Positions 47,118 through 64,000 of a DNA stretch of 64,000 nt are shown piece by piece. Position numbers and translations under genes: made by a program. The notes below the pieces were generated by a model. It was given only the letters and a program-made list of their open reading frames with translations, did not search any database and was not told the origin of the DNA. Every line of letters begins with the position of its first letter. Within the stretch, counting starts at the first letter, position 1. Source of the stretch: Erythrobacteraceae bacterium WH01K (GTDB lineage Bacteria; Pseudomonadota; Alphaproteobacteria; Sphingomonadales; Sphingomonadaceae); the NCBI GenBank assembly GCA_027941995.1, contig CP115966.1:2356001-2420000 (forward strand), given 5' to 3'.

Positions 47118-47126
47118 ATATGTCGT

Positions 47127-47161
47127 GATGCCGGAATCACGGGGTCCGCGATCCCGGCATC
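47127..47161. repeat. REP-like imperfect palindrome between receptor and transporter genes
   Basis: GATGCCGG at 47127-47134 pairs with CCGGCATC at 47154-47161; inside them ATCaCGG and CCGcGAT extend the stem, giving one 35-base hairpin. Short intergenic palindromes of this type (…TGCCGGAATC…) occur repeatedly in proteobacterial genomes. Here it could lower the expression of the MFS gene relative to the receptor gene. Only one copy is in the window. Confidence 0.6.
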
Positions 47162-47169
47162 CATTCCTC

Positions 47170-50127
47170 CTAGAAGTTCGTCTTCAGGCCGAGACGGTAA
47201 GTCCGCCCCAGCGCCGATCCGATGAACGGGTTGTAGCCGAGCGGAAGCTGGGCCTCGGCCGGTGCTGCGTCGGTGAAATTCTCCACGCCCGCCTGCAATT
47301 GCGCTTCCACGCCGCGGAACTGCAATTCGTAGGTCAGGAAGAAATCATGCTTCGTGAAGCTACCGCTCTCGATCCCGTAATCGGTCGGACCGGCAGAAGT
47401 CTGGAAGCATGGATCGCGCCCAATGCAGCGATCGTCCGTCACGCCGTCGATATGCGTCAGGACGTAACGGGCGTTGAACCCGCCGGCGTTGAAGTTGGCA
47501 TAGGCATTGGCGCGCCATTCCGGGACCGTGTTCGGGTCGCGGAAATAATTGCCGAAACCGACCGCGTCGTAGCTGTCGATCACCTGCACGCCCTGCACTT
47601 CGAACGGATCGAATTCGTAGCCCAGATTGTAGGACCCGTTGCCGCCGATCGAGAACATCCCGAAATCTAACGGGAAGTCGTAATTGATCGCGACATCGAG
47701 TCCGGTGATCTTCACATCCGGACCGTTGACGAAATCGGTACGCACGCGGGCGATGTCGAGACCGGTCGTCGTGCCCTGCACGCACTGGTTGCCGCTGAAG
47801 GTAATCAGGTTGGCCAGCGGGCTGGCGCAATTGACCGGCTCGTTACCCGTGGTCTGGCCATTGGCGACGAAGCTGGCGATGGCATCGCCCGGCGTGGTCG
47901 TGATCCGGTCTTCCAGGTCGATCGACCAGTAATCCACGCTGAAGGTCAGATTGCCCGGCGTCAGGATGAAACCGAGATTGTAGGTCAGCGCGGTTTCCGG
48001 TCCCAGGTCGTTCGGGTTGCCGAAGATGTCGAGCGACTTGTAGTTGCCGCCGGCCGCGGTGAACCCCTGCAGCGCCGTGGTACCATTGGGCGATACGTTG
48101 GATGCCAGCGGACCACGGAAGGTGGTGCCGACCGAACCGCGCAGGGTCAGCCAGTCCGTCGCTTCGAACCGGGCCGAAGCCTTCGGATTGACGGTCGACC
48201 CGATGGGCGAACCGTAATCCTCGTAACGGATTGCGCCGTCGAGCTCGAGCCGGTCGGTCACCGGGACCGAGACTTCCGCGAAGACGGCATACACGTCCTG
48301 CGACAGGCGCGCGGGCCGCGAACCACCGAGGAAGATGAAGGAGCCCACGCCTTCCGTCGCCGTGCCCACGCAGCTCTGGTCGCCCAGAATGAAGCACGGG
48401 TTCACGTCGAGATTCGACAGCTGGTTCAGCGGGTCGGTCGTGAACTTGTTCTTGCGGTACTGGACGCCGGCAGCGAACGCCACTTCCCCTCCGGGAAGCT
48501 CGAACCCGGTACCACCGGACAGGACGGCATCGAACACGACCTGCGTTTCCTCTTCCTCGGTTCCATTGGGAACCTGCAGCCAGGCTACCAGCTCTTCGCT
48601 GTTTTCCGCACCCGGTACGTAGAACTGGTTGTCGATGTTCAGCGCCGGGTTACGCGGCCCGGCATTGGTGAACGGGTTGAAGAACAAGCAGCCGTTCTCT
48701 CCCGGGGTCGTTCCCCGGCAGTTCGGTCCGCCGAACCCGTTCAGGGCGGCCTGCAGGCGGGAGCCGATGATGCCCGGCGCGAAGAAGGTCCGGTCCGATT
48801 CCCAGAAGGTCCCGTCGATGTCGAGGAACAGGTTGTCCGACAGTTCGAAATCGAACCCGCCGCTGATGCGATAGGCGTGGTTTTCCGCGAAACCGCGCGC
48901 TGCACCGCTATCCTGGTCGCGCGGGTTGCCGAGGAAGCCGAACGGGCGGAACAGTACGTTGGTAACCGCGACGATCGGATTGGTCGGGCTGCTCTGCGGC
49001 AATCCGACCTGGTCCAGGAACGCCGGCAGGCCGGGGTTCGCTGGCGACGTCGTGAAAGCGCTGGTGAAGCCCGAGCCGCGCGGCCCCTGGGTCGGCGGGA
49101 AGGACGGCGAATAGTTGAGGTTGTCGAGCCTGCTCGTCGCGAACAGGGCCTCGACGAAGAAATCGATCCGGTCCGAAATCGGGGCCGATACCTGCCCGTA
49201 GATCTGGTAGCGATCCTCGTCCTCGACGATGTTGTCGTAGGGAACGTAGGTAAAGCGGCACAGCGCCCCGTCCTGGAAACCGCCCAGAGATTCACAGCCG
49301 ACGTCGGGCCGGACCTGCGTGTTCACGGTTCCCGTACCGGTATCGAAATAGCTCACGGCGAGCAGGCCGGGAGTGGAGAGAGCGGAATAGGCCGACGGGT
49401 TCACCGTATATTCGGTCTGCGTGTAATCGCGTTCCGTGGTGCGCAGTTCGGAGCGGTGTTGATACCCAGCGCCGAGCAGGACGTTTGCCTCTCCAAGCTC
49501 GAGACCGACCAGCCCGCTCAACGTATAATTGCCGTCAGACCCGTCGATGAAGGTGTAATTGCCCTGCAATTCGGCGCCGACGAAATTGCGCCGCGTGACA
49601 AAGTTGGCCACGCCCGCAATGGCATCGGAACCATAGGTTGCTGCCGCGCCGTCCTTTAGCAGCTCGACCCGGTCGAGTGCGAACAGCGGCATCAAATTGG
49701 TATCGGCAAAGCCTGCGCCCGGCGCCTGGATGGTGCGTTTGCCGTTGAGAAGCACGAGGGTACGGGTCGGATCGAGACCGCGAAGGTTGATGGAGCCGAC
49801 GCCCTGGAAACCCTGCGCCACGGTCGAGAACTGGTTGGTATCGCCAAGGACCGCGCCGACCGAGGGCAGTTCCTTGATGAAGTCTAGCGGGGAATCGATG
49901 CCGTTCGCAGCCAGGTCTTCGGCGGTGAAGACATCGACCGGAAGCGATGCATCTTCCGGCGTGCCGCGAATAAGCGAGCCGGTAACGACGATCGTATTGT
50001 CGTTTTCGGAAGTATCCGACCCCGCGGTAATGGGATCGACCTGGGCCAGTGCAGGACTGGCCCCTATCAGGACTGCGCTGGCAAGTACGCCGCGCGCAAC
50101 GGTGCTGAGGTAATCTGTACGCATCAT
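47170..50127 (-). CDS. TonB-dependent receptor
   Basis: A 985-residue receptor. Signal peptide 1-28 (IGASPALAQ), TonB box NTIVVTGSLIRG at about 44-55, plug with SINLRGLDPTRTLVLLNGKR near 115, DRVELLKDGAAATYGSDAIAGV near 150 and the barrel ending GLKTNF. The group with the sequence RTLVLLNGKRT differs from the other two receptors here. AGGAGAG precedes the start. Inferred partner: the MFS transporter downstream. Ligand unknown. Confidence 0.93.
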   Translation of the reverse strand: MMRTDYLSTVARGVLASAVLIGASPALAQVDPITAGSDTSENDNTIVVTGSLIRGTPEDASLPVDVFTAEDLAANGIDSPLDFIKELPSVGAVLGDTNQFSTVAQGFQGVGSINLRGLDPTRTLVLLNGKRTIQAPGAGFADTNLMPLFALDRVELLKDGAAATYGSDAIAGVANFVTRRNFVGAELQGNYTFIDGSDGNYTLSGLVGLELGEANVLLGAGYQHRSELRTTERDYTQTEYTVNPSAYSALSTPGLLAVSYFDTGTGTVNTQVRPDVGCESLGGFQDGALCRFTYVPYDNIVEDEDRYQIYGQVSAPISDRIDFFVEALFATSRLDNLNYSPSFPPTQGPRGSGFTSAFTTSPANPGLPAFLDQVGLPQSSPTNPIVAVTNVLFRPFGFLGNPRDQDSGAARGFAENHAYRISGGFDFELSDNLFLDIDGTFWESDRTFFAPGIIGSRLQAALNGFGGPNCRGTTPGENGCLFFNPFTNAGPRNPALNIDNQFYVPGAENSEELVAWLQVPNGTEEEETQVVFDAVLSGGTGFELPGGEVAFAAGVQYRKNKFTTDPLNQLSNLDVNPCFILGDQSCVGTATEGVGSFIFLGGSRPARLSQDVYAVFAEVSVPVTDRLELDGAIRYEDYGSPIGSTVNPKASARFEATDWLTLRGSVGTTFRGPLASNVSPNGTTALQGFTAAGGNYKSLDIFGNPNDLGPETALTYNLGFILTPGNLTFSVDYWSIDLEDRITTTPGDAIASFVANGQTTGNEPVNCASPLANLITFSGNQCVQGTTTGLDIARVRTDFVNGPDVKITGLDVAINYDFPLDFGMFSIGGNGSYNLGYEFDPFEVQGVQVIDSYDAVGFGNYFRDPNTVPEWRANAYANFNAGGFNARYVLTHIDGVTDDRCIGRDPCFQTSAGPTDYGIESGSFTKHDFFLTYELQFRGVEAQLQAGVENFTDAAPAEAQLPLGYNPFIGSALGRTYRLGLKTNF

Positions 50128-50315: not shown

Positions 50316-51818
50316 CTAAAGCACGGATTTCACACGGATCATGGCTGCTGCGGCCACCACCCAGCAGGACGCCGCGAACAACATTGTCCACACCGGTTCG
50401 CCTGGGAAGAAGGCATTCATCACGCTGCCCATGACCGTTGCGACCAGCAATTGCGGCACGACGATGAAGACATTGAACAGGCCCATATAGATGCCGAGCT
50501 TCTGCTGGGGCAGGTTGGAGGCGAGGATGGCGTAGGGCATGGCAAGGATGCTGGCCCAGGCGATGCCGATACCGATCTCCGCCAGCAGAAGGGCCTGCGC
50601 ATCGCGCACGGCGAAGAACATCAGGAAGCCTGCCGCGCCCAGCATCAGGCAGGCGGCATGGGTCCAGACCTGCCCGATCCTGCGGCTCATGACCGGAAGC
50701 AGCGCAAGGGCTGCAATCGCGGCCACCCCGTTATAGACGGTGAACAGGACATTCACCCAGTTCGCCCCTTCGTTATAGGCGGCACTGGCCGTATCGGTGC
50801 TGCCGTAAACATATTGCGTGACGACCGGCGTCGTGTTGATCCACATGATGAACAGCGCCGACCAGCTGAAGAACTGGACCAAGGCGAGCCGTTTCATGAC
50901 CGGCGGCATCCCTGAAAAATCGCCGATGATGCTGGAAAGGATGTTCGCATCCTGTCCGCGCCGCGCCATCGTGATCGCTGCAATGCTGAGCACGCCATAC
51001 GCTGCCAGCAATGCGCCGAGGAGATAGACTTCCTTCTCCAGCGAGAATGCCTCGACCGCAAGGACGACCGCTGTGCCAAGGGCTATCCATAAACCGCCGG
51101 CAAGGAAAGATTTCGAGGCAAGGACACGCGCCGGTTGCGACAGGTCCTGCGCGCTATCACCTCCGAATTCCGCCATCTGTTCGGGGCTGTATTCCTTCAC
51201 CGTTAGAACGGTCCACATGACTGCCGCGAACAGGATTGCTGCGCCGGACCAGAAACTCCAGCGGACGGTATCGGGCAGTTGCCCCGGCGGCGCGACATTC
51301 GCCACGCCCAGCCATTCCAGCAGGGCGGGGAAGATCGATCCGACCACCGCGCCCGCGCCGATGAAAGCGGTTTGCACGGCATAGCCTGCGCTATGCTGGT
51401 CGGTTCCCAGCATGTCGCCGACAAAGGCGCGGAACGGCTCCATCGAGATGTTGAGCGATGCGTCCAGCACCCACAGCATGGCCGCCGCGAACAGCAGCGG
51501 CGCGCCGAATGCCGGGCTGAGCGGCATCAGGAACAGCGCAAGGGACGCCAGGATCGCGCCGGTCAGGAAATAGGGTTTGCGCCGTCCGAAGCGGTTCCAG
51601 GTTTTGTCCGAAAGATACCCGATGATCGGCTGCACGATGAGACCGGTCAGCGGGGCTGCGACCCACAATGCCGGCAGGTCGTCCATGCTGGCGCCCAGCG
51701 TCTGGAACAGGCGCGACATGTTCGCATTCTGCAGCGCGAAGCCGATCTGAATGCCGAAGAAGCCGAAGCTGATATTGAACAATGCCCCCGGGCCCAGCCG
51801 GGGCTTGCCTGCACTCAC
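50316..51818 (-). CDS. MFS sugar transporter (SLC45/maltose-type), starch locus
   Basis: A 500-residue permease with 12 helices. [22 protein letters not shown] near 55-75 is the motif of sucrose/maltose proton symporters of the GPH/SLC45 kind (R-x-G-R-R-K/R-P). The GTG at 51818 is chosen because GGGAGAG lies 5 bases upstream; an ATG 29 codons earlier has no such site. It is next to a LacI regulator and operator, and probably imports maltose or maltodextrins into the cytoplasm. Confidence 0.87.
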
Positions 51819-51899
51819 GCGAACTCTCCCTGTCCGCGGGGCCGTCGTCACAATGCGCACCCCGTCACCATGCGGGCTCGCACGGACAACGGGGATCGA

Positions 51900-51919
51900 C
51901 AACATGTATACGAATGTTG
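51900..51919. promoter_or_regulatory. LacI-family operator, site 1
   Basis: CAACAT at 51900-51905 and ATGTTG at 51914-51919 form inverted arms around GTATACGA. The 14-mer at 51905-51918 (TGTATACGAATGTT) matches 12 of 14 bases with the minus-strand 14-mer at 53075-53088. It lies about 85 bases upstream of the MFS start, between that gene and the LacI stop. Confidence 0.65.
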
Positions 51920-51936: not shown

Positions 51937-52971
51937 TCAGCCGCCCGTGCTGCCCCGCACGATCAGCCGCGTCGGCATTCGCGGATCGGGCATCGGAGTC
52001 CCTTCGATCTGGGCCAGCAGCGTGTCGACCAGTTTCTGACCAGCCCCCTGCACATCCTGCATCACGGTGGTGAGCGGCGGTGTCGTCAGGCTGGCGGCAG
52101 CGATATTGTCGAACCCGATGACCGCCACGTCGCCCGGCACGGCGATGCCGCGCTCTGCAAGGACCTGCAGCGCGCCGATCGCAATCAGGTCGCTGGCTGC
52201 GAAGACCGCGTCGAACGGCCGGCCGGTGGCGATGACCTCCTCCATCGCGGCGCGTCCCGCCTCTTCGCTGGTGATGGCATCATGCTGCAACGGAGGCTGG
52301 ACAGCAAAGCCCGCATCCGCAAGCGCGCTGGCCATTCCGCGGTAACGCTGCGCGAATTCGGGCGCATTGTCGTCGATCCGGCCGAGGAACGCGATATTGC
52401 GCCGTCCCCCGTCGATCAGGTGCCGACCGGCGATCCGCCCGGCTTCGAAATTGTCGGACCCGATGGTCTTGCCACCGCTATCCTGGCTGACGGAACCCCA
52501 ACGGGCATAGGACGTGCCCTGCTCCTGCAATTGCTGCAATCGGCGCTCGTATTGCTGCCAGTCGCCATAGCCCAGCAGGATCAGCCCGTCTGCCCGGTGG
52601 CTGTCATGGTATCGCTGGTGCCAGTCGTCTTCCATGCGCTGGAACGATACCAGCAGGTCGAGACCGCGACGGGCGCAGGCGCGGGTAATCGACCCCAGCA
52701 TGGCGACGAAGAAGGGATTGATCATGCTTTCGTCGGGTGTGGGATCTTCGAAGATGAGCAGGGCTATCGTGTCGGACCGCTGGGTCCGCAGCGAGGAAGC
52801 ATTGCGATCGACCGCGTAGTTCAGCTCCCTTGCAATACGCTCGATCCGCTCGCGCGTCTGCACACTGACCGAAGTATCGCCGCGCAGCGCCCGGCTGACG
52901 GTGGGCTGCGAAACCCCCGCCTTGTAGGCAATGTCGATGCTGGTTGGCCTGCCGGTCTTGCGCCGCCCCAT
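51937..52971 (-). CDS. LacI-family transcriptional regulator of the starch/maltodextrin locus
   Basis: A 344-residue repressor. The N-terminal helix-turn-helix is SIDIAYKAGVSQPTVSRALRG with the hinge helix NYAVDRNASSLRT near 60; the periplasmic-binding-protein-like domain contains VIGFDNIAAASLTTPPLTTV near 290. The start at 52971 has GAGGAGC before it. It is placed between the sugar MFS gene and the MalA-type receptor, and two like 14-base sites flank it. It probably represses both units until a maltodextrin product binds. Confidence 0.93.
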   Translation of the reverse strand: MGRRKTGRPTSIDIAYKAGVSQPTVSRALRGDTSVSVQTRERIERIARELNYAVDRNASSLRTQRSDTIALLIFEDPTPDESMINPFFVAMLGSITRACARRGLDLLVSFQRMEDDWHQRYHDSHRADGLILLGYGDWQQYERRLQQLQEQGTSYARWGSVSQDSGGKTIGSDNFEAGRIAGRHLIDGGRRNIAFLGRIDDNAPEFAQRYRGMASALADAGFAVQPPLQHDAITSEEAGRAAMEEVIATGRPFDAVFAASDLIAIGALQVLAERGIAVPGDVAVIGFDNIAAASLTTPPLTTVMQDVQGAGQKLVDTLLAQIEGTPMPDPRMPTRLIVRGSTGG

Positions 52972-53074
52972 AGCGTGCTCCTCGGCCCGCATAATGACGC
53001 GTTGCAGACCCTTCGGCAAGCGGGCACGGCGCGGTGTGGCAATTTGGCGACATGGGCTGATGCTGCGCTGCACA

Positions 53075-53088
53075 AACATACGTATACC
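53075..53088. promoter_or_regulatory. LacI-family operator, site 2
   Basis: AACATACGTATACC with a central CG and ATACGTAT palindromic core, matching site 1 at 12 of 14 bases when read on the minus strand. It lies between the lacI start (104 bases away) and the receptor start (124 bases away), suitable to control both. TATACC at 53083-53088 could also be a -10 element of the receptor promoter. Confidence 0.65.
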
Positions 53089-53211: not shown

Positions 53212-55962
53212 GTGATCAACCGGAAGACATTCTCGGCAGGTATCAGCGGATCGGCGCTGGCCCTTTCGCTCGCCCTGGCCGCTGCACCGCAGGCTGCGAT
53301 GGCACAGGACGCGGAATCGCCGGAAGCGGCCCCGCAAGGAGACGAGGACGGCGACGAAGTCATCGTGGTCCGCGGCTTTCGCGCCTCGCTGGAAAGCGCG
53401 GTCAACGAGAAGCGCCGCAGCGACCTGATCCTGGAATCGGTCACTGCCGAGGACATCGGCAAGCTGCCGGACGACTCCATCGGCGAATCCATTGCCCGTC
53501 TGCCCGGCGTCACGTCGCAGCGCCTGAACGGCCGCGCCAACGTGATCGCCATTCGTGGTTTCGGCCCCGATTTCTCGCAGACGCTGCTGAACGGACGCGA
53601 GCAGACGTCGACCGGCGACAACCGCGCGATCGAATTCGACCAGTATCCTTCCGAAGTCGTCAACCAGGTGGTCGTGTACAAGACGCCGAGCGCCTCTCTT
53701 GTCGGCCAGGGCCTGGTCGGGACGATCGATGTCCGTACGATCCGCCCGCTCGACCAGCGAGAGCGCATCCTGGCGATCGGCGCTAAGGGATCCTATGCCG
53801 ATCTCGGCGCGCTCAACGCCGGGTCGAAGGAATTCGGCTTCCGCGTGAACGGCACCTATGTCGACCAGTTCGCGGACGACACGGTCGGCATCGCGCTGTC
53901 CGCCGCCTATACCGACGAGCCGTACCAGCTGCAGGAATTCAACGCCTGGGGCTATGCCGGCAGCGGCGAGCCGGGCTCGCCCTTCGTCATCGGCGGTTCG
54001 AAAAGCTTCGTGACTTCCACGCAGCTGCAGCGCATCGGCGTGTCCGGTACGCTGGAGATCGACTTCACGGACAGCCTGACGCTGACCACCGATGCATTCT
54101 ATTCCAATTTCGACGATGACCAGTCGAAACGCGGCATCGAGCTTCCCCTGGGCTTCGGAGCCTTCGGCACCACCTTCGATTCCTCGACCGCCACCACCGT
54201 GGACACCGAATTCGGCGAGTTCGCGTCGTCCGGCACGTTCGAGAATGTCGAAGGCGTCATCCGCAACGACATCTTCCAGCGCCAGGCCGACCTCTATTCC
54301 GGCGGGCTGAACCTGGAATACGACAATGGCGACGGATGGAACGCCTTCGTCGATTTCGGCTATTCCCGCACCGACCGCAACGAACTGAGCATCGAGAGCT
54401 ATTCGGGCACCGGATACAATGCAGGCGTCGGGGCGACCGATACGATCGGTTTCCAGTCCGACCGCAACGGCACCAGCTTCCAGCCTTCGCTCGACTACAG
54501 CGATCCCACGCAGATCGTCCTGACCGACCCGCTCGGCTGGGGTGGCAGCCGCGTGCAGGCGGGCTATTACAACAACCGCATCATCGAGGACGAGCTGAAG
54601 CAGTACCGCGTGGGAATCTCGCGCGAACTGGACGGCTTCGTCAGCAAGGTGCTGTTCGGCCTGTCCTATACCAATCGCGACAAGAGCCTGACGCCGGACG
54701 AATTCTTCGTGCAGCCGCGCGCCGGCCTGACCGAAATCGCCATTCCGGACCAGTTCCTGCTGCGCAATACCGATCTCGATTACCTGGGCCTGGGGCCCAT
54801 CGTCAGCTACGATGCACGCGACATCATCGCCTCGGGCGAACTGGTGCTCGACCGCAACCTGTCGAACGACATCCCGGCCAAGGCCTTCCGCATCAGCGAA
54901 GACCTGATGACAATCTACGGCCAGCTGGATATCGACCAGCAGCTGGGCGCCGGCATCCTGACCGGTAATATCGGGGTCCAGGCGATCCAGACCGACCAGA
55001 CATCCTCCGGCCTTGCCTTCGCAGGTGGCCAGCAGGTCAACGTCTCGCTGGGTGACAGTTACTGGGACGTCCTGCCGTCGGCCAACCTGTCGCTTCGGCT
55101 CGACAGCGACTGGGTGTTCCGCATTGCCGCCAGCCGCCAAATCCAGCGCCCGCGCCTGGACGACCTGCGCGTTGCCATCGGCTACGGCATCAATATCAAT
55201 CCCTCGGAAAGCCCGACCGGCGTCGCGCCCTTCATCAGCGGCGGCGGCGGCAACCCGCTGCTGCGTCCGTACCGCGCCAACGCCGTCGACTTCAATATCG
55301 AGAAATATTTCGGCGGCGGGGGCCAGGGCGTGGTCGCGCTCCAGTTCTTCTACAAGGACATCAAGAGCTATATCGACCGCGCGCGCTTCGTGTTCGATTA
55401 CTCGGCCTTCCCGGACCCGGCGGGCCAGCCTGTGGCGACGCAGATCGGCCTGCTGGATGCACCTACCAATACGGGCGGCGGCGATTTCTACGGGGCAGAG
55501 GCGTCCATCGTCTTCCCGCTGGACATCATCACGCCTGCATTGGACGGGTTCGGCGTGACCGGCGGCCTCGGCTGGACGGACTCCAAGGTGGAGAACGCGA
55601 ATGGCGACGAAGCGGTCATCCCGGGTTACTCGAAATGGGTCGCAAACGGCACTGCCTATTACGAGAAGAACGGCTTCAACGCCCGCGGCAGCGTGCGTCA
55701 CCGCTCCTCCTTCTTGGCCGACTTCACCGGCTTCGGCGGATCGCCCACGCGGCGCCGTGCGCGGGCCGAGACCATCATCGACGCCCAGATCGGCTATGAC
55801 TTCGAAGGCGGCGCGCTCGATGGCCTGTCGATCTACCTGCAGGGCCAGAACCTGACCAACCAGCCCTTCGTGTCGCAATTCGACGTGCCGGTTCCCGAAG
55901 CGGTCATCGACTACCAGGAATATGGTCGCCGGTTCCTCGCAGGCTTCACCTACAAGTTCTGA
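53212..55962 (+). CDS. TonB-dependent receptor, MalA-like maltodextrin type
   Basis: A 916-residue receptor starting at GTG (53212), with GGGAGAG 6 bases upstream; a signal peptide (SALALSLALAAAPQAAMAQ) and TonB box EVIVVRGF at about 49-56. The plug shows DIGKLPDDSIGESIARLPGV and VIAIRGFGPDFSQTLLNGRE, characteristic of the Xanthomonas/Caulobacter class to which the Caulobacter MalA maltodextrin receptor belongs. It ends LAGFTYKF. It heads a polycistron of two halogenase homologues and three glucan hydrolases, so its ligand is probably maltodextrin. Confidence 0.93.
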   Translation: MINRKTFSAGISGSALALSLALAAAPQAAMAQDAESPEAAPQGDEDGDEVIVVRGFRASLESAVNEKRRSDLILESVTAEDIGKLPDDSIGESIARLPGVTSQRLNGRANVIAIRGFGPDFSQTLLNGREQTSTGDNRAIEFDQYPSEVVNQVVVYKTPSASLVGQGLVGTIDVRTIRPLDQRERILAIGAKGSYADLGALNAGSKEFGFRVNGTYVDQFADDTVGIALSAAYTDEPYQLQEFNAWGYAGSGEPGSPFVIGGSKSFVTSTQLQRIGVSGTLEIDFTDSLTLTTDAFYSNFDDDQSKRGIELPLGFGAFGTTFDSSTATTVDTEFGEFASSGTFENVEGVIRNDIFQRQADLYSGGLNLEYDNGDGWNAFVDFGYSRTDRNELSIESYSGTGYNAGVGATDTIGFQSDRNGTSFQPSLDYSDPTQIVLTDPLGWGGSRVQAGYYNNRIIEDELKQYRVGISRELDGFVSKVLFGLSYTNRDKSLTPDEFFVQPRAGLTEIAIPDQFLLRNTDLDYLGLGPIVSYDARDIIASGELVLDRNLSNDIPAKAFRISEDLMTIYGQLDIDQQLGAGILTGNIGVQAIQTDQTSSGLAFAGGQQVNVSLGDSYWDVLPSANLSLRLDSDWVFRIAASRQIQRPRLDDLRVAIGYGININPSESPTGVAPFISGGGGNPLLRPYRANAVDFNIEKYFGGGGQGVVALQFFYKDIKSYIDRARFVFDYSAFPDPAGQPVATQIGLLDAPTNTGGGDFYGAEASIVFPLDIITPALDGFGVTGGLGWTDSKVENANGDEAVIPGYSKWVANGTAYYEKNGFNARGSVRHRSSFLADFTGFGGSPTRRRARAETIIDAQIGYDFEGGALDGLSIYLQGQNLTNQPFVSQFDVPVPEAVIDYQEYGRRFLAGFTYKF

Positions 55963-55970
55963 AGCCTGCC

Positions 55971-56012
55971 GGATGGAGGGGCCTCTCGCGGGTCGCGGGG
56001 GCCTCTCCATCC
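55971..56012 (+). promoter_or_regulatory. large hairpin after the MalA-type receptor gene
   Basis: GGATGGAGGGGCC at 55971-55983 pairs with GGCCTCTCCATCC at 56000-56012 with one mismatch, loop of 16 bases rich in G and C. No T run follows, so it is more likely a 3'-end stabiliser or partial terminator than a strong terminator. Confidence 0.6.
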
Positions 56013-56029
56013 GCCGTTCGCCCTGCCAT

Positions 56030-56051
56030 GCCGGCAAAGCTGTTTGCCGGC
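56030..56051 (+). promoter_or_regulatory. second hairpin in the receptor-halogenase gap
   Basis: GCCGGCAAA at 56030-56038 and TTTGCCGGC at 56043-56051 are perfect 9-base arms around GCTG. No T run. Confidence 0.6.
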
Positions 56052-56060
56052 CTGGCGGTT

Positions 56061-56082
56061 GCCCCGCTGATGATGACGGGGC
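56061..56082 (+). promoter_or_regulatory. third hairpin, just before the halogenase ribosome binding site
   Basis: GCCCCG at 56061-56066 and CGGGGC at 56077-56082, loop of 10. AAGGGAG (56086-56092) for the next gene begins 4 bases after it, so folding may affect translation start. Confidence 0.45.
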
Positions 56083-56100
56083 GATAAGGGAGATGTGAGC

Positions 56101-57612
56101 GTGCCCAATCCTGCCCTACCCCCGATAGTGATTGCCGGCGGCGGCAGCGCCGGGTGGATGGCGGCTGCCACGCTTGCGCGCTTCTCGGGGCGCGAAATCG
56201 TCCTCGTCGAAAGCGATGCCATCGGTACGGTCGGCGTTGGCGAGGCGACCATTCCGCAGATCCGCCTTTTCAACGCGGCTCTCGGCATCGACGAAGGCAC
56301 CTTCCTGCGCGAGACGAAGGGCACCTTCAAGCTCGCCATCGAGTTCGACGGATGGTCGGGCGAAGGGGCAAGCTACCTCCACGCTTTCGGGTCCGTGGGC
56401 CATCCTTCCGGCGTCCTTCCGTTCCACCATTACTGGCTGCGCGCTCGCGCGGAAGGACAAGCAGGGCCGCTTGCCGACTATTGCCTCACCGATATCGCGG
56501 CGCGCGGCGGCAGGATGCAGTTCTTCCGGGCAGAGCCGGGCCAGCCTGCGCCCGATCTGCCCTGGGCCTATCACTTCGATGCCGGGCTCTATGCCGCGAT
56601 GCTGCGCCGCTATTCCGAAGAGCGCGGGGTGCGGCGGGTCGAAGGCGCGATCGTCTCTGTCGAACGCGATGGCGACACCGGCGATATTGCAGCGTTGGTG
56701 CTGGAAGATGGCACGCGGGTGGAAGGCGGGATCTTCCTCGACTGCACGGGTTTCCGCTCGCTCCTGCTGGGCGAAACGCTCGGCACCGGGTTCGAGGACT
56801 GGTCGCATTGGCTCCCTTGCGACCGTGCCGTCGCGGTGCCCTGCGCCTCTGCAGGTGATCTGACGCCCTATACCCGGGCGATCGCGCGCAAGGCGGGCTG
56901 GCAGTGGCGCATCCCGCTGCAGCACCGGATCGGCAACGGCCATGTCTTCAGCAGCGAGTTCATGAGCGAGGACGAGGCCACTGCGATTCTTCTGGGCGCT
57001 ATCGATGGCGAGCCATTGGGCCAGCCCCGCACCCTGCGCTTCAGGACCGGCATGCGAACGCGACAGTGGGAACGCAACTGCCTCGCTCTCGGCCTGGCCG
57101 CCGGCTTCATGGAGCCGCTTGAATCGACATCCATCCACCTGATCCAGTCGTCCATCGCACGCCTTCTCCAGATGCTTCCCGGAAAGGCATGCGAAAAGGC
57201 TGTCAGGGACGAATTCAACCGGCAGGCCCGGTTCGAGTGGGAGCGTATCCGCGACTTCCTGATCCTGCATTATGTCGCAAATGGCAGGACCACAGAACCG
57301 TTCTGGGATCGCTGCCGGGCCGTGCAAATCCCCGACACGCTTGCGGCGAAAATTGCTCTCTACAGGGCCAGCGGCACGATCCACCGTGAACACGAGGAAT
57401 TGTTCACCGAACCGGGCTGGCTGCAGGTCCTGACGGGACAGGGCATTGTCCCCGGCAGCTACAATCCGATCGCGGACCAGATGCCTGCCGCTCAGCTTTC
57501 CGCGATGCTGGAGCGGATCGCATCCCGCAATCGGCAGACCGTCCAATCCATGGCAGACCACGCAGATTTCCTGCGCGCCGTCATCGACCATTCGCAGAGG
57601 AAATCCGCATGA
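56101..57612 (+). CDS. flavin-dependent halogenase homologue 1, starch locus
   Basis: A 503-residue member of the tryptophan halogenase family. The FAD motif is GGGSAGW at 13-19, VGVGEAT near 45-51, the conserved Lys is K77 in GTFKLAIEF (the equivalent of the halogenating Lys79 of PrnA/RebH) and the family signature GWQWRIP at 266-272. The key residues appear kept, so halogenating activity is possible. Start at GTG 56101 is preferred over GTG 56095 because AAGGGAG then has 8-base spacing. The substrate is unknown; it sits between a maltodextrin receptor and an alpha-amylase, overlapping the latter by 4 bases. Free halogenase needs a flavin reductase partner, not seen here. Confidence 0.88.
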   Translation: MPNPALPPIVIAGGGSAGWMAAATLARFSGREIVLVESDAIGTVGVGEATIPQIRLFNAALGIDEGTFLRETKGTFKLAIEFDGWSGEGASYLHAFGSVGHPSGVLPFHHYWLRARAEGQAGPLADYCLTDIAARGGRMQFFRAEPGQPAPDLPWAYHFDAGLYAAMLRRYSEERGVRRVEGAIVSVERDGDTGDIAALVLEDGTRVEGGIFLDCTGFRSLLLGETLGTGFEDWSHWLPCDRAVAVPCASAGDLTPYTRAIARKAGWQWRIPLQHRIGNGHVFSSEFMSEDEATAILLGAIDGEPLGQPRTLRFRTGMRTRQWERNCLALGLAAGFMEPLESTSIHLIQSSIARLLQMLPGKACEKAVRDEFNRQARFEWERIRDFLILHYVANGRTTEPFWDRCRAVQIPDTLAAKIALYRASGTIHREHEELFTEPGWLQVLTGQGIVPGSYNPIADQMPAAQLSAMLERIASRNRQTVQSMADHADFLRAVIDHSQRKSA

Positions 57613-59474
57613 TCCGCAAAGCCGCCCTCCTGCTGGCCGCCAGTGCCGGGCTTGCGCTCCCCGCCTGCGCCGGCACGCCGCCCGCACAAATTGCAGCGCA
57701 AGGCCCGGCATCAGGTACAGAGCAGGATTTCCGCGCCCGCCCGGTCACGGACGAGGTTATCTATTTCGTCCTGCCCGACCGCTTCGCCAATGGCGATACC
57801 ACCAATGACGACGGCGGCTATGGGCCGGACAGGCTCGCTAGCGGCTACGATCCGACCCACAAGGGCTGGTATCACGGCGGCGATTTGAAGGGGCTGACCG
57901 AAAAGCTCGATTACATCCAGGGATTGGGCGTCACGGCGATCTGGTTCGCGCCGATTTTCAAGAACAAGCCCGTCCAGGGCGATCCCGGCAATCCGGGCTC
58001 GCTCAGCGCGGGCTATCACGGATACTGGGTGACCGATTTCACCCGGGTCGATCCGCATTTCGGCACCAATGCCGAATTCAAGGCCTTCGTCGACGCGGCG
58101 CATGCGCGCGGGATGAAAGTCTACATGGACATCATCACCAACCACACCGCCGATGTGATCCGCTATGCGGAGGACGAATACGCCTATCGCAGCAAGGGCG
58201 AATATCCCTATTCCACGCGCGGCGGGGTAGATGGCGCGCCGATCAATACCGGCTTTGTCGGCGACGATGATCCGGCCGCGGCGAACTGGGCGGCGCTTAC
58301 CGACCCGGCCTATGCCTACACGCCCGTCGTCCCGAAGGCTGAGAAGGATATCAAGGTTCCGGCCTGGCTGAACGATCCGATCTACTATCACAACCGCGGC
58401 GACAGCGCGTGGGTCGGCGAAAGCAGCGTCTATGGCGATTTCGTCGGGCTGGACGACCTGTTCACGGAGCATCCGCGCGTGGTCCAGGGCATGATCGACA
58501 TCTTCGGCGGCTGGATCGACGAATTCGGTATCGACGGTTTCCGCATCGACACCGCGAAGCATGTGAACCCCGGATTCTGGCAGCAATTCGTGCCCGCCAT
58601 CCGGGCCCGCGCCGCAGCCGCAGGCATTCCCAATTTCCACGTCTTCGGCGAAGTGTACTGGAGCAATCCGGTCCAGCCGCTGGGCGCGGAAATCATGGCG
58701 AAGTCGGGCCTGCCCTACACGCTGGACTTCGGCTTCGCAGCCGCTGCACAAGAAGTCGCCGGCGGAAAAAGCGCGCCGTCCATGATGGCCGATCTGATGG
58801 AACAGGACGCGGTCTATCCCGGAGGGGCCGACACGGCGCCGGGCCTGCCGACATTCCTCGGCAATCACGACATGGGGCGGTTCTCCATGTTCGTGCGAGA
58901 CCATGCGGAAGGGGCGGGCGAAGACGAGATCCTCGCCCGCGTCATGCTGGGCCATGCCATGATGTTCACCCTGCGCGGCGTGCCGACCATCTATTACGGC
59001 GACGAACAGGGCTTCGTCAGCGACGGCAACGACCAGCTGGCGCGCGAGGATATGTTCCCCAGCCGCACCGACGTCTACAACGACAACGACCTGCTGGGCA
59101 CCGATGCGATTACCGCGCAGGACAATTTCGACACGCGTCATCCGCTGTACGAACTGATCGCGGCCCTTGCCGAGGTCCGCCTTTCCAGCCCTGCCCTGAT
59201 GCGCGGTACGACCGCAGTGCGCGCCTTCGATCACGAAGGTCCCGGCCTGCTGGCCGTGGAACGGCACGATCCTGCGTCGGGTGAGCGGGTGCTCGTCGCT
59301 TTCAACACCTCGAACGCGCCCATTACCCGTCATGTCGAAGTCGATTACGGTGCCACCGGCGTATCCGCGCTGATGGGACAGTGCCCGCTCTCGCTGGCAG
59401 CGCGCGGCAGCATGCGGATCGACCTGCCGGCCCTCGGCTATACCGCCTGCACGCTGACGAGCGGGGCAGACTGA
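57609..59474 (+). CDS. alpha-amylase family GH13 lipoprotein
   Basis: A 621-residue enzyme. The lipobox is LPAC (Cys20), so it is a surface or periplasmic lipoprotein. GH13 landmarks are YWVTDFTRVDPHFG near 140, nucleophile D314 in GFRIDTAKH, acid E348 in VFGEVYW and stabiliser D421 in LGNHDMGR. NWAALTDP and DDDP loops suggest calcium sites. It cuts internal alpha-1,4 links in starch or maltodextrin. ATGA overlap with the halogenase gene. Confidence 0.93.
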   Translation: MIRKAALLLAASAGLALPACAGTPPAQIAAQGPASGTEQDFRARPVTDEVIYFVLPDRFANGDTTNDDGGYGPDRLASGYDPTHKGWYHGGDLKGLTEKLDYIQGLGVTAIWFAPIFKNKPVQGDPGNPGSLSAGYHGYWVTDFTRVDPHFGTNAEFKAFVDAAHARGMKVYMDIITNHTADVIRYAEDEYAYRSKGEYPYSTRGGVDGAPINTGFVGDDDPAAANWAALTDPAYAYTPVVPKAEKDIKVPAWLNDPIYYHNRGDSAWVGESSVYGDFVGLDDLFTEHPRVVQGMIDIFGGWIDEFGIDGFRIDTAKHVNPGFWQQFVPAIRARAAAAGIPNFHVFGEVYWSNPVQPLGAEIMAKSGLPYTLDFGFAAAAQEVAGGKSAPSMMADLMEQDAVYPGGADTAPGLPTFLGNHDMGRFSMFVRDHAEGAGEDEILARVMLGHAMMFTLRGVPTIYYGDEQGFVSDGNDQLAREDMFPSRTDVYNDNDLLGTDAITAQDNFDTRHPLYELIAALAEVRLSSPALMRGTTAVRAFDHEGPGLLAVERHDPASGERVLVAFNTSNAPITRHVEVDYGATGVSALMGQCPLSLAARGSMRIDLPALGYTACTLTSGAD

Positions 59475-59477
59475 TCG

Positions 59478-61100
59478 ATGGCCAGTGTCAGCATGCAAGA
59501 CCCGGCATCCGCGACGCAGGAAGACCTGCCGTGGTGGCAGGGCGCGGCAATCTACCAGATCTATCCCCGCAGTTTCATGGATTCCGATGGCGACGGCGTG
59601 GGCGATTTGCCGGGCATTACCAGCCGGCTGGACCATGTCGCCTCGCTGGGTGTCGATGCCATCTGGGTGTCGCCTTTCTTCACGTCACCCATGCGGGATT
59701 TCGGATATGACGTGGCCGATTACTGCGACGTCGATCCTCTGTTCGGGACCCTGGCCGATTTCGACGCGATGGTTGCGCGCGCACACGAACTGGGCCTGAA
59801 AGTCCTGATCGACCAGGTATATTCGCACACTTCGGACGAACATCCGTGGTTCCGCGAAAGCCGCGCCAGCCGCGACAATCCAAAGGCCGACTGGTATGTC
59901 TGGGCCGATGCCAGGCCGGACGGAACGCCGCCCAGCAACTGGCAATCGGTCTTCGGCGGGCCGGCATGGACCTGGGATGCACGGCGCGGCCAGTATTACA
60001 TGCACAATTTCCTCAGCAGCCAGCCGCAGGTGAACGGACACCATCCCGATGTGCAGGACGCCCTGCTGTCGGCCATGCAGTTCTGGCTGGACAGGGGCGT
60101 CGACGGCTTTCGCGTGGATGCGCTGAACTTCCTGATGCACGACCCGCATTTGCGCGATAATCCCCCTGCCCCGCCCAGCGACAAGCCGCGCACGAGGCCG
60201 TTCGATTTCCAGCGGCGCGTCTACAACCAATCCCACCCCGGTATTCCGGGCTTCATCGCCCGCATGCGCCGGCTGACGGACCGCTACGATGCCATCTTCA
60301 CCGTCGCTGAAGTCGGCGGCGACGATGCGGAGGAAGAGATGAAGGCGTTCACGAAGGGCGATACGCATCTCAATTCCGCGTACGGTTTCAATTTCCTCTA
60401 TGCCGACCGGCTGACCCCCGGCTTGGTCTGCGGCGCGCTGGCGCAGTGGTCCGGCGAGGAAGGGGCTGGCTGGCCCAGCTGGGCGTTCGAGAACCATGAC
60501 GCACCGCGGGCACTGTCCCGCTGGTGCGCTCCGGAACACCGCGACGCCTTCGCCCGGCTGAAGATCGCTCTCCTCGCGTCCCTGCGCGGCAATATCATCC
60601 TGTGGCAGGGCGAAGAGCTGGGGCTGACGCAGGTCGACATCCCTTTCGACCAGCTGCACGATCCCGAAGCCATCGCCAACTGGCCGCTGACCCTCTCGCG
60701 CGACGGTGCGCGCACCCCGATGCCGTGGGAAGCGGGCGCGCCTTCTGCCGGGTTCGGAGCGGACCAGCCATGGCTGCCGCATGGCGAGGAAAACGTCGCG
60801 AGGGCCGTCGATGTCCAGAACGCGGACGACGGCTCCCTCCTCTCTTTCACGCGCGAGGTGCTGGCGCTGCGCAACGCTGCCCCGGCCCTCCATCACGGAG
60901 ACGTGCGGTCGTGCGAGGCAGCAGGCTCGGTGCTGGACCTCGTCCGGGAATATCGGGGTACGCAGGTCCGCTGCCTGTTCAACCTTTCGCCCGATCCGAT
61001 CGCGATCGATGCTGCGGGCCGCATCCTGCTGGCCGTCAACGGCGCAGCGCCCGGCACACTGCCGGGCCATGCCGCCCTGTTCCTGGAGACCGAGCTATGA
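59478..61100 (+). CDS. GH13 alpha-glucosidase
   Basis: A 540-residue enzyme without a signal peptide. It opens WWQGAAIYQIYPRSFMD, then nucleophile D214 in GFRVDAL, acid E278 in FTVAEVGG and stabiliser D341 in ENHDAPR; the loop DVADYCDVDPLFG is like oligo-1,6-glucosidase/alpha-glucosidase. It should free glucose from maltose or maltodextrins, most likely in the cytoplasm. It begins 3 bases after the amylase stop and overlaps the GH97 gene by 4. Confidence 0.92.
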   Translation: MASVSMQDPASATQEDLPWWQGAAIYQIYPRSFMDSDGDGVGDLPGITSRLDHVASLGVDAIWVSPFFTSPMRDFGYDVADYCDVDPLFGTLADFDAMVARAHELGLKVLIDQVYSHTSDEHPWFRESRASRDNPKADWYVWADARPDGTPPSNWQSVFGGPAWTWDARRGQYYMHNFLSSQPQVNGHHPDVQDALLSAMQFWLDRGVDGFRVDALNFLMHDPHLRDNPPAPPSDKPRTRPFDFQRRVYNQSHPGIPGFIARMRRLTDRYDAIFTVAEVGGDDAEEEMKAFTKGDTHLNSAYGFNFLYADRLTPGLVCGALAQWSGEEGAGWPSWAFENHDAPRALSRWCAPEHRDAFARLKIALLASLRGNIILWQGEELGLTQVDIPFDQLHDPEAIANWPLTLSRDGARTPMPWEAGAPSAGFGADQPWLPHGEENVARAVDVQNADDGSLLSFTREVLALRNAAPALHHGDVRSCEAAGSVLDLVREYRGTQVRCLFNLSPDPIAIDAAGRILLAVNGAAPGTLPGHAALFLETEL

Positions 61101-63139
61101 CACGCCTTCTTGCCACCATCGCCCTTGGCGCATTGGCCGCCCCCTTGGCCGCTGCCGAAGTCGCTTCGCCCGATGGCCGCATCGTGGCAGAAATGGACGT
61201 CGATGGCGACGGCGTGCCGTTTTACCGCGTCACACGCGATGGCAAGGAAATCATCGCCGAAAGCGACCTGGGCTTTACCTTCAGCGATGCCGAGATGATG
61301 CGCCGCAACTTCGTGGTCGAGAGTGAGGCGCGCGACAGTCATGACGGCACCTGGGAGCAGCCATGGGGCGAACGCCGCTTCGTACGCGACCATCACAACG
61401 AGCTGGCTGTCACGTTTCGCGAGACGCGCAATACTGCCGACCGCGCGCTGACCGTCCGCATGCGGGTATTCGATGACGGCGTGGGCTTTCGCTATGAATT
61501 CCCGGATGATCCCGACCAACCGGTATGGAACATCACGAACGAACTGACGGAGTTCAATATCGCATCGCCGGGCACCGCGTGGTGGATCCCGGGCGGCGAC
61601 TGGAACCGATACGAGATGGTGTACCAGGAAACGCCGGTCGACGCGGTGTCGATTGCCCACACGCCCATGACCATGCGGCTGGACGACGGGACGCATCTGT
61701 CGTTCCACGAAGCGGCGCTGGTGGATTATTCCGGCATGTGGCTGCGCCGGATGGATGGGCAGCGCTTTCGCGCCATGCTGGCCCCGTCCAGCCGCGGTGC
61801 GAAGGTCGTGCGCGAGGGCGCTTTCACGACGCCCTGGCGCACCATTCGCATCGGCGACGAGGCTGCCCACCTGGTCGAGAACGATCTGGAACTGAACCTC
61901 AACGAGCCGAATAGGCTGGGCGACGTCGCATGGGTGGAGCCGGCGAAATATATCGGTATCTGGTGGGGAATGATCTCCAATCGCTGGACTTGGGGCACCA
62001 GCGAACGTCACGGTGCGACGACCGAGCGCGCGAAGGAGTATATCGATTTCGCCGCCGAGCATGGCTTTCGCGGCGTCCTGATCGAAGGCTGGAACATCGG
62101 CTGGGATGGCGACTGGTTCAACAATGGCCGCGAATTCAGCTTCACGCAGGATTATCCCGATTTCGACCTCGAAGACGTAGCCGCGTATGCGCGCTCGAAG
62201 GGGGTGCGGATCATCGGGCACCATGAAACCAGCGGGAACATCGCCAACTACGAAAAACAGCTGGGCGACGCGCTCGACCTTTACGAGAGCCTCGGCATCG
62301 ACTGGATCAAGACCGGCTATGTTGCGGATGCCGGCGGGATCGTGTCCTGCAATGCGGACATCGACGATCCGTGCGACGAGAATACCGAACTGTTCGAATG
62401 GCACGACGGACAGCGGCAGGTGCAGCACCACCAAATGGTGGTGGAAGAGGCAGCAAGGCGCCGGATCGCCATCAACCCGCATGAGCCGGTAAAGGATACA
62501 GGCATCAGGCGCACCTATCCCAACTGGGTCGCCCGGGAAGGCGCGCGGGGGCAGGAATACAATGCGTGGGGGCCGTTCAACAACGGACCGGAACATGACC
62601 CCACGCTGGTCTATACCCGCATGCTGTCGGGCCCGATGGACTACACGCCGGGCGTGCTTTCGCTGAAGGGCGACCAGGACGTGCCTATCGCATCGACGCT
62701 GGCGAAACAGCTCGGTCTTTATCTCGCCATTTATTCGCCGATCCAGATGGCCGCCGACTTCATCGAAAGCCTGGAAGCCCATCCGCGGGAACTGGATTTC
62801 ATCAAGCAGGTCCCCGCCGATTGGGCCGAAAGCCATCTGGTCGCGGGCGAAGTGGGCGATTACGCGATCTTCGCGCGCAAGGACCGGGCGAGCGAAGACT
62901 GGTATCTTGGCGGCGTAAACGATGCGACGCAGCGGACGGTGGATCTGCCTCTAGATGTGCTGGACGATGGCGTCGTATACGAAGCGCAGGTGTGGAAGGA
63001 CGGGCCGGGTGCGACCTATCTGACAGAGGACCGGCACGATATCGCCTACGATACCGTCATGCTGACATCGGACGATACCTATACCGTGCGCCTCGCCCCT
63101 GGAGGCGGCTTTGCCATGCGGCTGGTCCCCCAGGAGTGA
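61097..63139 (+). CDS. GH97 alpha-glucosidase, SusB-like
   Basis: A 680-residue glycoside hydrolase with an N-terminal signal (MTRLLATIALGALAAPLAAA, cleaved near 20). The beta-sandwich domain is followed by a TIM barrel and a C-terminal sheet. Candidate catalytic Glu residues are E377 in GHHETSGN, E463 in NPHEPVK and E487 in GQEYNAW, matching the inverting SusB layout; there is no Asp nucleophile in the position used by the retaining branch. It trims alpha-glucans in the periplasm. GTGA overlap with the next gene. Confidence 0.9.
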   Translation: MTRLLATIALGALAAPLAAAEVASPDGRIVAEMDVDGDGVPFYRVTRDGKEIIAESDLGFTFSDAEMMRRNFVVESEARDSHDGTWEQPWGERRFVRDHHNELAVTFRETRNTADRALTVRMRVFDDGVGFRYEFPDDPDQPVWNITNELTEFNIASPGTAWWIPGGDWNRYEMVYQETPVDAVSIAHTPMTMRLDDGTHLSFHEAALVDYSGMWLRRMDGQRFRAMLAPSSRGAKVVREGAFTTPWRTIRIGDEAAHLVENDLELNLNEPNRLGDVAWVEPAKYIGIWWGMISNRWTWGTSERHGATTERAKEYIDFAAEHGFRGVLIEGWNIGWDGDWFNNGREFSFTQDYPDFDLEDVAAYARSKGVRIIGHHETSGNIANYEKQLGDALDLYESLGIDWIKTGYVADAGGIVSCNADIDDPCDENTELFEWHDGQRQVQHHQMVVEEAARRRIAINPHEPVKDTGIRRTYPNWVAREGARGQEYNAWGPFNNGPEHDPTLVYTRMLSGPMDYTPGVLSLKGDQDVPIASTLAKQLGLYLAIYSPIQMAADFIESLEAHPRELDFIKQVPADWAESHLVAGEVGDYAIFARKDRASEDWYLGGVNDATQRTVDLPLDVLDDGVVYEAQVWKDGPGATYLTEDRHDIAYDTVMLTSDDTYTVRLAPGGGFAMRLVPQE

Positions 63140-64000
63140 GCAGTGACGGTCCTGGCCCGCGCGCAGCGTCCGGCAAGCCGCCCCGCGTGGTGGTCCTTGG
63201 CGGGGGCAGCGCGGGCTGGATCACCGCCTGCCTTCTCCACCACGCCTGGGGGCAGCGCGGAGGCCATGTAACCGTCGTCGAAAGTCCGCAGATCGGGATC
63301 ATCGGCGTTGGCGAGGGTTCGACGCCGCAGCTGAAAGCATTCTTCGACCATCTCGGCATTGCCGAGGACGAATGGATGGGGCCGTGCGAGGCGACCTACA
63401 AGCTGGGCATCCGGTTTTCCGGCTGGAGCGAGCGCCCCGGTTACGAAAGCTATTTCCACCCCTTCCCCGGCCCCGTCGACCTGCATAGCGAACCGGGCTT
63501 CGTCGCCAATTGCGCCGCCGCACGACGCGGGTTCGACGCGCCTGCGCACCCGGACGACTGGTTCCTTGCCACCGTCCTCGCCTCGCGCGGGAAATCAGCG
63601 CAAGCGAACGCCAGTTTTCCCTTCGCGCCCAGCTACGGCTACCACTTCAATTCGCATCGCCTGGGCCAATTTCTGCGCGAATGGGGTACCGCGCGCGGCA
63701 TCGTCCATCGTCCGCTGACCGTCAGCGAGATCGAGATGGGGCCGGAAGGCGACGTCGCAGCATTGCTGTGCGATGGAGGAGAGAGGATCGAGGGCGACCT
63801 GTTCGTCGACTGCTCCGGTTTTCGCAGTGTGATCGCACAGGGGCGAATGGGTACGCCATTCCGCGCATTCTCCGGCAATTTGTTTAACGACCGCGCCGTG
63901 GTCATGCCGACGCCGCATCAGGGCGGATACAAACCACAGACGGACGCTATCGCGATGAAGAACGGCTGGCGTTGGTCCATCCCTCTCACCAGCCGCGTAG
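63136..64000 (+). CDS. flavin-dependent halogenase homologue 2, partial
   Basis: Starting at GTG 63136, overlapping the GH97 stop by 4 bases, the frame stays open to the window end (288 codons). The FAD motif is GGGSAGW at 22-28, then GVGEGSTPQL near 58, K89 in ATYKLGIRF and GWRWSIP at 277-283. It is a paralogue, not a duplicate, of the halogenase homologue at 56101 (the sequence differs throughout). The C-terminal half is outside. No Shine-Dalgarno is spaced properly, so it may rely on termination-reinitiation from the GH97 gene. Confidence 0.85.
   Translation, partial: MSSDGPGPRAASGKPPRVVVLGGGSAGWITACLLHHAWGQRGGHVTVVESPQIGIIGVGEGSTPQLKAFFDHLGIAEDEWMGPCEATYKLGIRFSGWSERPGYESYFHPFPGPVDLHSEPGFVANCAAARRGFDAPAHPDDWFLATVLASRGKSAQANASFPFAPSYGYHFNSHRLGQFLREWGTARGIVHRPLTVSEIEMGPEGDVAALLCDGGERIEGDLFVDCSGFRSVIAQGRMGTPFRAFSGNLFNDRAVVMPTPHQGGYKPQTDAIAMKNGWRWSIPLTSRV

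Follow-up and report, generated by a model that had tools for sequence, protein, structure and literature searches.

The subject of this article is a 64,000-nucleotide stretch of the genome of Erythrobacteraceae bacterium WH01K (contig CP115966.1, positions 2,356,001 to 2,420,000), hereafter the window, and within it an operon in which the gene of a TonB-dependent receptor is followed by genes for two homologues of flavin-dependent halogenases, called HalA and HalB, and for three glucan hydrolases. A preliminary description of the sequence had pointed out the two halogenase genes and had framed them as linked to maltodextrin uptake. Its observation is confirmed by the analysis presented here, and its interpretation is supported in part: the receptor is the more constant partner of the halogenase, and the pairing also occurs in loci for other glycans.

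The operon and its surroundings

The genes run on the plus strand in the order receptor, HalA, alpha-amylase, alpha-glucosidase, GH97 and HalB, with overlapping starts and stops, and on all these points the coordinates (Table 1) agree with the preliminary description. Three junctions are 4-nt overlaps of stop and start codons (HalA/amylase, ATG 57609-57612; glucosidase/GH97, ATG 61097-61100; GH97/HalB, GTG 63136-63139), and the alpha-glucosidase begins 3 nt past the end of the amylase. Because the genes overlap, the halogenases and the starch genes are very likely co-transcribed, and the coexpression claimed for them earlier stands to that extent.

The receptor scores 533 bits against TIGR01782 (cut-off 310), its Plug and TonB_dep_Rec domains are also matched, and its N terminus resembles a signal peptide by inspection; in the tree, it groups with receptors from GH13/GH97 loci. 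On the other side of the operon start, the LacI-family regulator is, by its position, likely the operon's own. The adjacent symporter reaches only 88 bits against TIGR01301, under the cut-off of 511, and its relatives recur next to such loci in other genomes; it is likely the inner-membrane partner of the system. TonB receptor, degradative enzymes, inner-membrane transporter and regulator are thus found together, as in a CUT locus (carbohydrate utilisation with a TonB receptor). Just past the symporter, a second, unrelated TonB-dependent receptor (985 aa) and a major-facilitator transporter occupy 45825-50127 of the minus strand. No inverted repeat of at least 7 was found around the operon start, and promoter and terminator scans did not rise above shuffled sequence.

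Past position 64000, where the preliminary description had pointed for SapC and cupin genes, home-made profiles gave no match to SapC, Cupin_8 or DUF6445 in the 18-kb stretch L005, which starts within GH97. Instead, the strand of HalB carries zwf (L005:2738, window 64737, 77 nt after HalB), edd (L005:4212) and glk (L005:6056). This stretch, L005:2738-7033, has short gaps or overlaps, with all genes on the HalB strand. One transcript, continuing through these genes, may cover uptake, hydrolysis and entry into the Entner-Doudoroff pathway.

Table 1. Genes of the operon and its divergent neighbours, with examples of genes from related loci. Positions are those of the window, or of a fetched locus where its number (L) precedes them.
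Feature	Position	Strand	Description
Sugar symporter, major facilitator/GPH kind	50316..51905	-	MFS_1 60 bits, MFS_2 43 bits
LacI-family regulator, divergent from operon	51937..53079	-	PF00356, PF13377
TonB-dependent receptor, TIGR01782 type, maltodextrin-receptor clade	53212..55962	+	916 aa, GTG start at 53212
HalA, class I (BrvH-type) flavin-dependent halogenase homologue	56095..57612	+	PF04820 610 bits
GH13 alpha-amylase	57609..59474	+	PF00128 217 bits; secreted-looking N terminus (by inspection)
GH13 alpha-glucosidase	59478..61100	+	PF00128 380 bits, DUF3459
GH97 glycoside hydrolase	61097..63139	+	PF10566, PF14508, PF14509
HalB, class II flavin-dependent halogenase homologue	63136..64659 (L005:1137-2660; crosses window end at 64000)	+	PF04820 413 bits
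DUF6445 gene, example	L135:4684-5382		
DUF6445 gene, example	L161:9632-10309		
SapC gene, example	L175:9118-9834		beside receptor

Halogenase features of HalA and HalB

Among solved structures, the chains closest to HalA are 9luq (534 bits), 6y1w (520 bits) and 6frl (473 bits), the last of which is BrvH according to the passages of PMC8269204 cited here. HalA relatives are also contained in 66 phage records, such as MT835646.1 (H5) and DQ149023.2 (H8); the listed cyanophage relatives are distant (about 27%), and two records labelled as human faecal phage reach about 50% identity and may be contigs of bacterial origin. The FAD motif of HalA lies at about residue 10 and leaves no space for a signal peptide, so the enzyme should be cytoplasmic.

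The fetched loci hold 322 members of the halogenase family, which bit-score cuts on a home-made profile divide into class I (HalA type, 221), class II (HalB type, 83) and class III (18), with one duplicate each in class I and class II from overlapping loci. Throughout class I, HalA included, K79, E343, W269 and W271 (HalA numbering) are identical in 221/221 members; P274 is kept in 219/221, and G15, G17 and G20 of the GxGxxG motif in 220/221 each, with one gap. In class II, G15 is found in 83/83 and G17 and G20 in 80/83 each, the catalytic Lys and Glu each in 79/83, and the WxWxIP positions (W269, W271, P274) in 83, 78 and 52 of the 83, while Ala replaces the Ser after the catalytic Glu in 76/83. 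The catalytic Lys and Glu are mostly lost from class III. Its members with a degenerate active site adjoin class I genes near receptors, or sit between them, at L077, L087, L133, L140, L146, L148, L162, L237 and L280, where they look like pseudoenzyme partners.

For the two proteins of the window, most of the features listed in the preliminary description hold: the FAD-motif glycines are present in both, and the GW-x-W-x-IP signature reads GWQWRIP in HalA and GWRWSIP in HalB. The catalytic Lys had been placed correctly at K89 in HalB, as a count along the translation confirms, whereas in HalA it is K79 by alignment, not K77. Both proteins also have the Glu of EPLE(S/A)T. By this conservation, catalytic competence is supported, more strongly for HalA than for HalB. 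The Trp4 substrate motifs that would point to a free-tryptophan halogenase, namely those of groups A and B as printed in the cited part of PMC8269204, are absent from HalA and HalB by inspection.

One alternative takes HalA for a flavin monooxygenase or oxidoreductase that acts on the receptor, or on a partner, without halide. It would suit the oxygenase-like partner families of relatives described below, and the halide dependence of HalA is itself a prediction. However, no class I sequence departs from Lys79, the Glu or either Trp of WxWxIP, a motif proposed to keep such enzymes from acting as monooxygenases (PMC5945002, in the passages cited); we regard this alternative as quite unlikely.

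The receptor as constant partner

When the receptor of the window was used as query against 99 genomes of the same order, 32 gave a match at E ≤ 1e-100, including the genome it comes from. The same genomes were queried with HalA (E ≤ 1e-40), HalB (1e-90), the alpha-glucosidase (1e-120) and GH97 (1e-100), cut-offs that differ from query to query. A class I halogenase lies directly downstream of the receptor, on the same strand and after a gap of 84-240 nt, in 31 of the 32 genomes; within 12 kb of the receptor, the alpha-glucosidase is found in 26/32, GH97 in 20/32 and HalB in 8/32, the last being a count of close relatives only. Of the four partners compared, the halogenase accompanies the receptor most constantly, and the link is to the receptor rather than to the starch genes. 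Linkage by chance in a few genomes, the objection raised in advance, is excluded by these 31 adjacent pairs.

The halogenase family itself, PF04820, is unevenly spread. Among the matches listed, it occurs in 43 of 59 genomes of the window's family (40 above the cut-off); at E ≤ 1e-60, only 16 of 200 genomes drawn from the phylum have it, and two families from classes other than the window's have it in 19/20 and 16/21 genomes, where a single genome gives as many as 18 and 20 matches, respectively. With a halogenase as query, 80 loci were taken from genomes of Alpha-, Beta- and Gammaproteobacteria, and in 69 of them no more than 1 kb separates a receptor of the window's family from a gene of HalA or HalB type. 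Two further loci have another receptor type (L091, Pfam-checked, and L103, of the same cluster), two have a receptor 1.6-2.2 kb off and two are cut by a contig end. The 101 receptor-halogenase pairs are mostly arranged as in the window, on the same strand with the receptor first (80), the others being divergent (17), convergent (2) or with the halogenase first (2). Another 60 loci were added from three further families within the phylum; they contain 61 halogenase clusters, of which 51 include a receptor, and receptor-HalI is their commonest order (11/61).

These pairs are found in loci with GH13/GH97 (starch), GH16/GH3, GH31 or GH43 genes, and the receptors concerned belong to several sequence families, including some that are not TIGR01782. 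The labels GH16, GH3, GH31, GH43, glk and GPH were given by eye; a Pfam check of one member each confirmed the first five and showed GPH to be a major-facilitator sugar transporter. This breadth bears on two options of the preliminary description. According to the first, the enzyme would modify an aromatic group carried by the polysaccharide ligand, or delivered with it, after uptake. The operon shared with glucan hydrolases was the attraction of that suggestion, which is weakened by the recurrence of the same pairing in GH13/GH97, GH16/GH3, GH31 and GH43 loci and beside non-TIGR01782 receptors; it is the least probable of the explanations considered here. The second, oxidation of the receptor's ligand, loses ground as well, the ligands being sugars, while flavin halogenases require electron-rich aromatic rings.

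The near-obligate adjacency to the receptor would also fit a dedicated chaperone or assembly factor whose chemistry is incidental, and class III members without catalytic residues do occur beside class I genes. Such a role for HalA is improbable, given how strictly class I preserves its catalytic residues.

The halogenase-link state changes 5 times on the receptor tree, whereas shuffling gives 25.6 changes, with 21 as the lowest count; this comparison is descriptive since the linked rows were picked by halogenase. The halogenase tree, divided by locus type (GH13 against GH16/GH3 without GH13), shows 2 changes against 13.8 in shuffles, and distances in this analysis correlate with a Mantel r of 0.65.

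Possible substrates and comparison with known systems

At some loci of relatives, the halogenases are accompanied by three further families, SapC (PF07277), the JmjC-like Cupin_8 and DUF6445 (PF20043). All three are missing from the window's own operon and bear on its function via relatives alone. Among the 61 clusters of the added loci, the order receptor-HalII-SapC-Cupin_8-HalI recurs in 3 and receptor-HalII-SapC-Cupin_8-HalI-DUF6445 in 2; over all loci, mostly picked by halogenase, 31/33 SapC, 31/33 Cupin_8 and 26/34 DUF6445 genes share a cluster with a halogenase. In 24 DUF6445 sequences, H113, D115, H205 and R223 are invariant, an HxD...H...R pattern. The AlphaFold model of this protein (pLDDT 96) is matched by Foldseek to 2-oxoglutarate (2OG)/Fe(II) oxygenases (best E 1.6e-5, TM 0.53), including prolyl hydroxylases, one of them in complex with EF-Tu. 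By its invariant residues and predicted fold, DUF6445 appears to be a 2OG/Fe(II) oxygenase. The SapC model is confident (pLDDT 95) and had no match in the PDB at E ≤ 0.001.

The explanation that we prefer, with a probability of about 0.38, is that HalA is a working two-component flavin halogenase with the receptor as its genetic partner, and that it halogenates the receptor precursor before export. The coupling of the genes and the conservation of the catalytic residues are observed; that HalA halogenates, that it does so on the receptor, and at which residue, at what stage and to what advantage, is inferred. FADH2 from an unlinked reductase, O2 and halide would give hypohalous acid, which would be relayed to Lys79. 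The target would be an aromatic residue exposed on the receptor polypeptide, most likely Trp, which would be halogenated in the cytoplasm, ahead of Sec export and barrel folding, and the halogenated receptor would work or survive better at the cell surface. HalB would act in the same way, as a second enzyme that the system can do without. Given the many receptor-paired copies, the differing ligands, the oxygenase co-partners in relatives and what is known of BrvH, the receptor polypeptide would be the simplest common substrate. BrvH, the characterised relative, is an active enzyme that left free tryptophan unhalogenated; its site is open and solvent-exposed, and its authors likened it to MibH, an enzyme acting on Trp within a peptide (PMC5945002, in the parts cited).

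Alternatively, HalA may halogenate a small diffusible aromatic (an indole, a phenolic or a signal) that accompanies polysaccharide feeding, and may simply be co-regulated with the receptor. BrvH brominates free indole in vitro (PMC5945002), and metagenomic enzymes without a Trp4 motif halogenate indole as well (PMC8269204), both according to the passages cited. Because a genome may hold up to 20 family members, a single shared small product is argued against, and a common product is hard to fit to genes of which many stand beside their own receptor, with receptors of different families. This reading is rather unlikely.

The residue that would be modified was sought in the receptors themselves. 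For this comparison, starch-clade receptors shorter than 800 aa were excluded, which left 67 of 69, and the unlinked set consisted of 28 of 60 loci (12 below the cut-off, 18 linked and 2 ambiguous were left out). In the starch-receptor clade, W443 is found in 67/67 and W246 in 94%, each in at most 7% of the 28 unlinked receptors. In the beta-glucan clade, two Trp are found in 24/24 (each in at most 7% of the unlinked receptors) and a third in 96% (at most 21%). W246, W443 and the first beta-glucan Trp stand mostly in a W-G context, the remaining clade Trp do not, and these clade-specific residues may serve to bind sugar. One receptor family retains a Trp in 5/5 linked against 1/5 unlinked members, too few to use. 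A W-G motif was then considered as a universal target, using the receptors of 203 loci with matches and one vote per sequence family, the discovery families being among the votes. It was rejected: the WG mean is 0.80 in class I linked families (18 families) and 0.77 in unlinked ones (24), with 0.70 in class II-only families (10). The motif N.?WG likewise failed to separate linked from unlinked receptor families.

This failure weighs against the receptor as partner and substrate of HalA, and so do the following points. Among the 32 genomes with the receptor, G001 has it (366 bits, the second-lowest score) with glucosidase and GH97 near, and no HalA match at E ≤ 1e-40; among the matches listed, PF04820 is represented there by a single fragment with E 4e-4. 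Five of the 80 halogenase loci lack a nearby receptor (L050, L057, L065, L074 and the short contig L089), as do 10 of the 61 clusters in the added loci. In the window's own genome, L006:10998-13978 (C1:1666019-1668879) has a class I halogenase between pgk with a thioesterase and fba, and no receptor was called in the 20 kb fetched; the class I gene overlaps a class III relative that has lost the catalytic residues, and the congener locus L118 repeats the gene order. Co-evolution of the halogenase with the receptor rather than with the hydrolase is not supported in the 41 starch loci, where halogenase distances correlate with those of the receptor at r 0.52 and with those of the alpha-glucosidase at r 0.61 (bootstrap difference -0.30 to 0.06). 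Within genomes, the correlation of class I halogenases with receptors is weak (pooled r 0.29, p 0.06; three genomes, one near zero), and that of class II is mixed (pooled r 0.48, p 0.04; two genomes, one negative).

Finally, the matches listed for 12 genomes include 49 TIGR01782 receptors, of which 25 lie within 1 kb of a halogenase and the other 24 do not, a count in which fragment matches of up to about 32 bits were dropped and two pieces of one class III gene were counted once. Because these 24 have none so near, a halogenase is not a general need of TIGR01782 receptors. Apart from this count, fifteen receptors that had no called neighbour were excluded, gene calls being unreliable there. 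That some receptors do without one would suit a variant in which receptor modification is real and protects against phages or colicin-like toxins using the receptor, instead of aiding uptake. TonB receptors are common phage receptors. Even so, we find this variant very unlikely.

Halogenation of the receptor precursor by HalA may belong to a wider scheme, tentative as it is, in which a dedicated enzyme family, paired with individual receptors, halogenates receptor residues, aromatic or other, before export while the JmjC-like cupin and DUF6445 hydroxylate them, as a receptor-specific oxidative protein-modification system. If true, this would be a dedicated bacterial protein-halogenation system, and it would explain the up to 20 family members in some proteobacteria. 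With the receptor as constant partner, above the hydrolases, the hunt for the substrate narrows to halogen on the receptor. As for phenotypes, a Sphingomonas transposon insertion in a gene annotated as tryptophan halogenase is listed among colony-morphology genes (PMC11340318, in the part cited), possibly an envelope phenotype.

Regarding the literature, the open-access papers listed by the search included none that, by title or start of abstract, dealt with the function or receptor link of receptor-linked halogenases; subscription literature lay outside this search. The pairing had been described as known in Caulobacter and Xanthomonas. In this search it was not found in print, although Caulobacter loci (L099 and L102) and a Xanthomonas metagenome bin (L088) do show it. 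A cassette supposed to exist at a Caulobacter heme receptor was dropped, the words "halogenase", "SapC" and "cupin" being absent from the main text of PMC3751524. The Xanthomonas CUT loci and the Caulobacter mal locus resemble the window in combining a maltodextrin receptor, glucosidases, a transporter and a regulator, and the Xanthomonas receptor gene is induced by maltose (PMC1790865, in the passages cited). Unlike the halogenase-bearing locus of the window, they are presented in a main text without the word "halogenase".

Among halogenases, HalA shares family and catalytic residues with the tryptophan halogenases PrnA, RebH and Thal; lacking the Trp4 motifs of groups A and B, HalA and HalB differ from these and so resemble group C of PMC8269204, as described in the part cited. 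The best solved matches, 6y1w ("putative tryptophan halogenase") and 9luq ("tryptophan halogenase"), carry names that are depositors' labels. BrvH is like HalA in its FAD, Lys and WxWxIP features, and its gene also adjoins a second halogenase gene (PMC5945002, as cited). It differs as an in vitro indole brominase for which PMC5945002 names no natural substrate in the passages cited, in a main text without the word "receptor". Halogenases of this type have been studied as biocatalysts, and the passages cited from PMC5945002 and PMC8269204 name no natural substrate for them. MibH, a peptide tryptophan chlorinase, serves a peptide antibiotic, whereas the neighbours of HalA are sugar-use genes. 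The enzyme family is already known; what stands out is its strikingly constant partnership with a receptor.

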